Below are positions 189 to 902 of a stretch of 23,798 nt of DNA, piece by piece (the stretch's first letter is position 1; each line of letters starts with the position of its first letter). The stretch is from a virus. Where the stretch lies: the IMG/VR virus record IMGVR_UViG_3300012928_000043, positions 1-23,798 of that record; one strand, 5' to 3'. The notes under the pieces are model-generated. The model did no database searches. It was not told the origin of the DNA and saw only the letters and a program-made list of their open reading frames with translations. Both the position numbers and the translations under genes were made by a program.

Positions 189-213
189 TGTTAGAGAGAC
201 ACGATGATGATGA

Positions 214-392
214 TAGCACGATGAGTGCTAACTTCAAGATGGTGGGGTCTTGTGGAGCAAGAGCAAGACCCTACCTGAATTGAAGTTAATGGTAGTGAAG
301 TGATAAGCATCAATCTTGCTTCTTGGATTCGCAAGAAGTATCTAGCGAAATGGGTTCGACACCCGTTTCGGTGGATAAAACTCCAGCAAGAT
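214..392 (+). ncRNA. Candidate structured RNA or leader element upstream of the late promoter
   Basis: No credible ORF lies here, but the segment folds densely on paper. There is a 6-bp hairpin at 214-230. A bipartite stem pairs 229-236 with 281-288 (8 bp) and 241-252 with 264-275 (12 bp including one G-U), with an 11-nt loop. Another hairpin pairs 317-325 with 332-340 (one G-U), and a 10-bp hairpin pairs 346-355 with 361-370. The loop sequence AGCAAGA (256-262) is complementary to TCTTGCT (314-320), which also pairs with AGCAAGA at 385-391, so two alternative folds exist. GC looks higher than in the late genes. I do not recognise a known RNA family. The strand is assumed from the surrounding genes and the RNA boundaries are inferred. 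Confidence 0.4.
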
Positions 393-398
393 CAAGGG

Positions 399-413
399 GT
401 TACACCGTGTGAC
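399..413. promoter_or_regulatory. Imperfect 15-bp dyad abutting the -35 box (possible operator)
   Basis: GTTACAC and GTGTGAC flank a single central C; six of the seven half-site positions are complementary. The dyad ends one base before the TTGACA -35 box. That placement suits a dimeric regulator. The same sequence could not form a good RNA hairpin because the loop would be one base. No regulator is identified in this window. Confidence 0.35.
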
Positions 414-443
414 TTGACATGTTGATAGAGGGCTGTGTATTAT
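414..443 (+). promoter_or_regulatory. Sigma-70-type promoter for terS and the late operon
   Basis: A perfect -35 hexamer TTGACA (414-419) is followed by an 18-bp spacer and TATTAT (438-443), which matches the -10 consensus at five of six positions. Transcription would start near 450, about 20 nt before the terS ATG at 471. This is the best promoter I can see in the window and implies use of host RNA polymerase at least here. Confidence 0.65.
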
Positions 444-470: not shown

Positions 471-902
471 ATGACTAAAGCAAACAAACAACAACAAGAG
501 AAGTACAAGGGTAAGATAGTACCCATGAACGAAATTGAGAGCAATGCGAAGACATTGCGACCTTTGAGTGATATCACGGATGCACAAGCAGAACTGGTAC
601 ACATGATGTTGCATGATGGTTGCAACCCAACAGAAGCAAGTAAACGTCTGGGTAGGAATAAGGCATGGGCATATAAAACCATTGTAAAACAACATGTTAT
701 CGACTACCGACAGAAGTTAAGCATGATGACATTGGGATGGGATGCCACACAGGCATTGGCAACCATGAGAGAACTGTTGCAAGCAAAGAGTAACTACATC
801 AGACTTGAAGCCAGTAAAGATCTGATGGACAGAGCAGGACTAAAGGTTGAGCCAGTACGAGGAGCCAACACCAACGTAAGTATAAACTTCAACATTGATT
901 AA
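471..902 (+). CDS. terS: Terminase small subunit
   Basis: This 143-residue protein is the likely DNA-recognition subunit of the packaging motor, which binds concatemeric phage DNA and hands it to the large subunit. A helix-turn-helix-like stretch lies around residues 52-71 (NPTEASKRLGRNKAWAYKTI). It is followed by a helical oligomerisation-like region containing RLEASKDLMDRAGL, a layout typical of phage small terminases, and the usual short charged C-terminal tail. The size fits the family. It is the first gene after the 414-443 promoter and two genes upstream of terL. The ribosome-binding site is weak (AGG at 466-468). GC is near 48% in its middle, higher than the late genes. The family call rests on pattern and context. 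Confidence 0.75.
   Translation: MTKANKQQQEKYKGKIVPMNEIESNAKTLRPLSDITDAQAELVHMMLHDGCNPTEASKRLGRNKAWAYKTIVKQHVIDYRQKLSMMTLGWDATQALATMRELLQAKSNYIRLEASKDLMDRAGLKVEPVRGANTNVSINFNID

Follow-up and report, generated by a model that had tools for sequence, protein, structure and literature searches.

The gap between the early and late genes of this phage probably contains a structured non-coding RNA on the + strand, extending from position ~190–203 to ~377–392 of the window (the single linear IMG/VR virus record IMGVR_UViG_3300012928_000043, 23,798 nucleotides). We read it, with moderate confidence, as a strongly diverged member of a locus that occupies the early/late gap of a group of marine phages. 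Fold energy, + strand bias, conserved position and compensatory changes in related cassettes together lead us to predict that this gap is a real, fast-evolving and modular phage RNA locus, of which the window RNA is one orphan member. An earlier note on this DNA had interpreted the region as a structured RNA, non-coding and unassigned to any family, beside the late promoter and working as a switch through a duplicated pairing partner; the candidate RNA is retained here and the switch is not.

Genomic setting and relatives

The window begins within the early/late gap, and the divergent early gene lies outside it, visible only in relatives, where most upstream genes point leftward and ~600 bases with no evident gene precede the terminase small subunit gene (TerS; 21 loci). 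The element is located in this gap upstream of terS, immediately before a TTGACA promoter that we assign to the late genes because of the genes behind it (Table 1); the late operon behind the element spans >20 kb of the record. The −35 element and its surroundings are conserved in 81/84 gaps, which lends good support to the late promoter that the earlier note had placed beside the element. In the family, the promoter takes the form TTGACA, ~18 bases and TATAnT, with an A-rich block and a TTAnnnnnnTGTGA motif in front of it. The same promoter-upstream motif is retained, as GTTACAAAGATGTGAATAGACA, in a distant relative on a MAG contig labelled Flavobacteriales (L168 6090–6150; TerL 54%).

Searches with TerS and TerL yielded ~240 loci and, from these, 109 distinct gaps (window included). 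The folding set comprised 84 distinct gaps (83 relatives and the window; 300 nt before the promoter each). The window's TerL and its counterpart in Pelagibacter phage Hodr are 57% identical. Among ten early-region proteins tested beside the gap, SSB alone was recognised by name (its gene adjoins the gap of relative L022).

Table 1 Features of the early/late gap and adjoining late region in the window.
Feature	Position	Strand	Remarks
GATGATGATGAT microsatellite, 5' marker of the family RNA locus	203–214	+	Repeats ≥9 nt long in 79/84 gaps (9.5 expected)
Short hairpin AGCAC-GATGA-GTGCT	215–229	+	Directly 3' of the microsatellite; same architecture in near relatives
Long two-part hairpin	229–288	+	AGCAAGA in loop (256–262); core pair probabilities near 1
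Candidate three-way junction	313–392	+	Closed by 313–320/385–392; encloses hairpins 321–336 and 339–377
Promoter-upstream block	378–412	+	Colinear with relatives L002, L003 and L006; holds AGCAAGA (385–391) and TTAnnnnnnTGTGA motif
Late promoter TTGACA-18-TATTAT	414–443	+	TTGACA 414–419, TATTAT 438–443; 11/12 consensus positions; conserved in 81/84 gaps
Terminase small subunit (TerS), first late gene	471–902	+	PHROG 2538, E 1.3e-06

A structured and modular locus across the phage group

Compared with shuffles, the 84 gaps had a median z of −3.9 on the + strand and −3.0 on the − strand (coding control, −0.5 and −0.3), and structure was seen in gaps of all cassette types. The + strand folded better in 29/36 cluster representatives (p 2.3e-6) and the controls were without bias, which favours a rightward RNA over a DNA element. 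Covariation was found within individual cassette types. In a four-way-junction domain, aligned across 17 distinct relatives, 12 pairs form in every sequence, four of them with compensatory change, and a 13th, outermost pair forms in just 8/17. This domain occurs in L111 and 16 others at about −170 to −75 from TerS (CCAGATCGTTACCC...GAGCTGG), has no Rfam match and may well merit a new RNA family of its own. A second cassette type has two pairs with compensatory change, and the sequences of a third are too uniform to show covariation. Related sequences entered these counts as found, so independent events are fewer than the figures imply. Cassettes are also exchanged, as relatives with a common 5' module can carry different 3' domains. 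When the window was treated as a diverged four-way-junction cassette, alignment scores were no better than those of shuffles; given that cassettes are swapped at the locus, homology of internal modules is not required of a family member.

The 5' end of the locus is more uniform in its architecture than in its letters. Other gaps carry GT, GTA or TTG repeats at the place of the window's microsatellite (Table 1), and the unit varies between lineages, yet on the + strand it nearly always contains G but lacks C (34/43 clusters; the reverse in one). The short hairpin behind it is common in the nearer relatives and not universal (stems of at least 5 in 22/59, 7 expected); across 12 stems, the letters differ at all five pairs with pairing retained. 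Positions 203–229 of the window hold the same arrangement, a strand-polarised microsatellite and then the short hairpin that covaries in near relatives, and this shared part sits just outside the stretch described by the earlier note. Further upstream, a TCATCATnnnATGATA partial dyad precedes the microsatellite in L008, L015, L052, L074 and others, often ~18 bases after TTKACT, and might serve as an operator or as a promoter of unusual type. The window itself has an A/T-rich inverted repeat at 101–131 (AAAAATAAAAA...TTTTTATTTTT), upstream of the candidate RNA, that could be a two-way terminator.

Predicted fold of the window element

Positions 200–400 of the + strand fold at −79.4 kcal/mol compared with −49.7 for shuffles (z −7.3; 0/200 dinucleotide shuffles as good), which bears out the earlier claim of a structured RNA at the level of a candidate. 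The − strand also folds well, at a less extreme score (−58.6, z −5.4). Scanned on both strands at intervals of 60, the 23.8 kb has its lowest-energy 164-nt stretch beginning at 241. All folding energies come from a nested model, and a pseudoknot falls outside its score.

The hairpin at 229–288, the TCTTGCT at 314–320 and the AGCAAGA at 385–391 are present exactly where the earlier note had placed them. Read off the sequence, the hairpin consists of an outer helix (229–237/280–288) and an inner helix (241–252/264–275). Hairpin 339–377 is likewise firm (core pair probabilities near 1) and ends in the tip GGG-TTCGACA-CCC. The longer-range stem that had been proposed to enclose two hairpins held up in part: 313–320/385–392 appears in the free minimum free energy (MFE) structure of 229–400, but in 200–400 this stem lies 1.1 kcal/mol above the MFE with a probability of ~0.05 and is not firm. 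Neither blastn nor local alignment nor a covariance model found a homologue of window 229–377; the structure predicted for these middle and 3' modules comes from folding energy.

Searches for a known identity

The element had been described as explained by no protein gene and assignable to no RNA family, and both statements agree with our searches. The open reading frames within the element are all ≤47 amino acids and none is supported as coding. The Rfam search proposed as a check gave no match for the window element at the gathering threshold or at E up to 10, and 20 relatives also had no match. The T-arm letters of hairpin 339–377 prompted a search for tRNA and tmRNA, for which ARAGORN and Rfam were negative. 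A single-sequence covariance model of 305–397 (R1) found only itself and matches at E 0.36 or worse. A scan of the collection for GGGTTCGACACCCGTTT returned two loci only; matches to hairpin DNA patterns were chance-like, and none scored with R1, which covered 1/3 and 7/9 matches of two scans. Searches by blastn against phage records gave nothing convincing, and a literature search, in which few subscription journals were covered, found no description of such an RNA locus. Structured phage RNAs are already known as a kind; what would be new here is the family and its unusual mode of evolution.

Alternative pairings and possible roles

The AGCAAGA sequence occurs twice, in the loop at 256–262 and at 385–391, and TCTTGCT (314–320) can pair with either copy; the pairing with 385–391 grows to 8 bp with 313/392. 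As the earlier note had it, the two pairings exist, are mutually exclusive and are energetically feasible. A two-state switch, in which TCTTGCT pairs with the loop as a pseudoknot or with 385–391 and the choice controls late transcription, nevertheless seems improbable to us. A duplicated 7-nt partner arose in only 32/5000 dinucleotide shuffles of the region (0.6%), but also in 26/1154 windows of 164 nt across the genome (~2%), such that the feature by itself is weak evidence. Among relatives the pattern was present in 5/43 clusters, which does not support it as a family trait. The distal AGCAAGA falls inside the conserved promoter-upstream block that near relatives have in common (CTCCAACAAAAACAA in the closest relatives L002 and L003, TTCAGCAAGAACAA in L006 and CTCCAGCAAGATCAA in the window), and L002, L003 and L006 lack an upstream TCTTGCT partner even with G-U pairs allowed. 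Alternative pairings that are conserved or covary were therefore not found, the colinear block occurring in near relatives without its partner, and the low probability of the closing stem in 200–400 points the same way. In another lineage, L015, L023, L031, L034, L051 and others have GTCTTGC at about −280 to −70 from TerS, with GCAAG on its 5' side and G(T/C)AAGA on its 3' side; these relatives, mostly of one lineage and spotted after the fact, may keep the idea of a switch alive. The alternative pairings of TCTTGCT are probably a local property of the window sequence, and a conserved switch is unlikely. On the simplest reading, the CTTG/CAAG-rich helices of a structured RNA give alternative pairings without switching.

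We computed position, favoured strand, structure and the covariation in relatives, and infer transcription and action in cis. From 5' to 3', the locus begins with the microsatellite, in many cases continues with a short hairpin, and then has exchangeable structured modules and the late promoter. Transcription would start upstream of the microsatellite, cross the element and enter the late operon, and the nascent RNA would fold and act in cis on late-operon transcription, either by modifying RNA polymerase in the manner of put (see below) or by using the microsatellite and hairpin to bring in a phage protein. We offer this role as a nascent leader RNA tentatively. The position of the element upstream of the only clear promoter and the good folding of the − strand count against our overall reading, and the main gap in the proposed mechanism is the promoter: no consistent sigma-70-type promoter was found before the microsatellite. 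Somewhat more doubtful is a discrete, abundant, trans-acting phage RNA (a decoy, sponge or scaffold) that processing or termination near 392–400 would set free. Extensive structure and the rapid exchange of modules between relatives would suit such an RNA, and phage RNAs that are large and structured have precedents in GOLLD and ROOL (PMC12286853); against it, a terminator scan of 1–1100 found no terminator-like site on the + strand, and known families gave no match. That the gap acts at the DNA level only, through operators, a packaging site or inverted repeats and with no functional RNA, we regard as unlikely. The gap does adjoin terS, the conserved motif and A-rich block stand immediately before the promoter, and both strands beat shuffles in folding, but simple double-stranded sites would not be expected to show the + strand folding bias (p ~2e-6), the branched covarying domains or the polarised microsatellite. 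We give still less credence to a primer or R-loop RNA at a replication origin. The gap between divergent early and late genes would be a fitting place, an RNA–DNA hybrid would be favoured by the G-containing, C-free + strand of the microsatellite, and the early region of L022 contains the SSB gene; however, the effects of gene strand and GC skew cannot be separated at the locus, and the structure sits 3' of the G-containing stretch.

Considering the family as a whole, the gaps might hold structured RNAs of a new class, modular and quickly exchanged, with a C-free, G-containing microsatellite as their mark. Through partners specific to each cassette, such RNAs would act on late transcription or on competing phages, a proposal we make tentatively. 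For a structured RNA it would be uncommon to keep position and architecture while nearly all sequence is swapped, and such swapping at a kept locus may point to the evolution of specificity. If transcribed, the predicted RNA would be family-wide in uncultured marine phages and detectable in existing metatranscriptomes.

Comparison with known systems

The put RNA of phage HK022 (~70 nt; PMC9378689) forms two stem-loops downstream of an early promoter, modifies RNA polymerase and is considered to influence the transcription of a long operon in cis. Antitermination without a trans-acting phage protein is characteristic of put. The window element resembles put as a phage-encoded structured stem-loop RNA, with cis action on a long operon only proposed in its case. 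Unlike put, it is ~190 nt, branched and upstream of the only clear promoter, and we do not claim it as a put-type element. GOLLD and ROOL are large structured phage RNAs, and GOLLD has a variable 5' part (PMC12286853). Both are much longer than the window element, are often found near tRNA islands and are represented in Rfam, and their models do not match the window. The tip of hairpin 339–377 has the letters and sizes of a tRNA or tmRNA T-arm, but the window element is without acceptor stem, CCA or tag. In c4 RNA, another phage RNA, one element has complementary partners elsewhere. This antisense immunity RNA (RF01695, listed in PMC2864571) gave no match in the window, and the pairing partners in the window are not conserved.

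The closest parallel in position comes from Pelagibacter phage EXVC031P Hodr (L161 3600–3830), in which divergent early genes, a gap and a TerS homologue follow in the same order, the TerS homologue is the first rightward gene after the divergent gap, and the gap is strongly structured. In Hodr, the gap holds a single long inverted repeat (L161 3610–3750) upstream of TTGACA, with z of −3.8 on the + strand and −4.9 on the − strand; it differs from the window in consisting of this one repeat, in having no sequence homology and in the opposite strand bias of z. The non-homologous sequence and opposite bias make the Hodr gap a lead only. With a structured element at the same place in a distant cultured relative, the question is open to bench testing.
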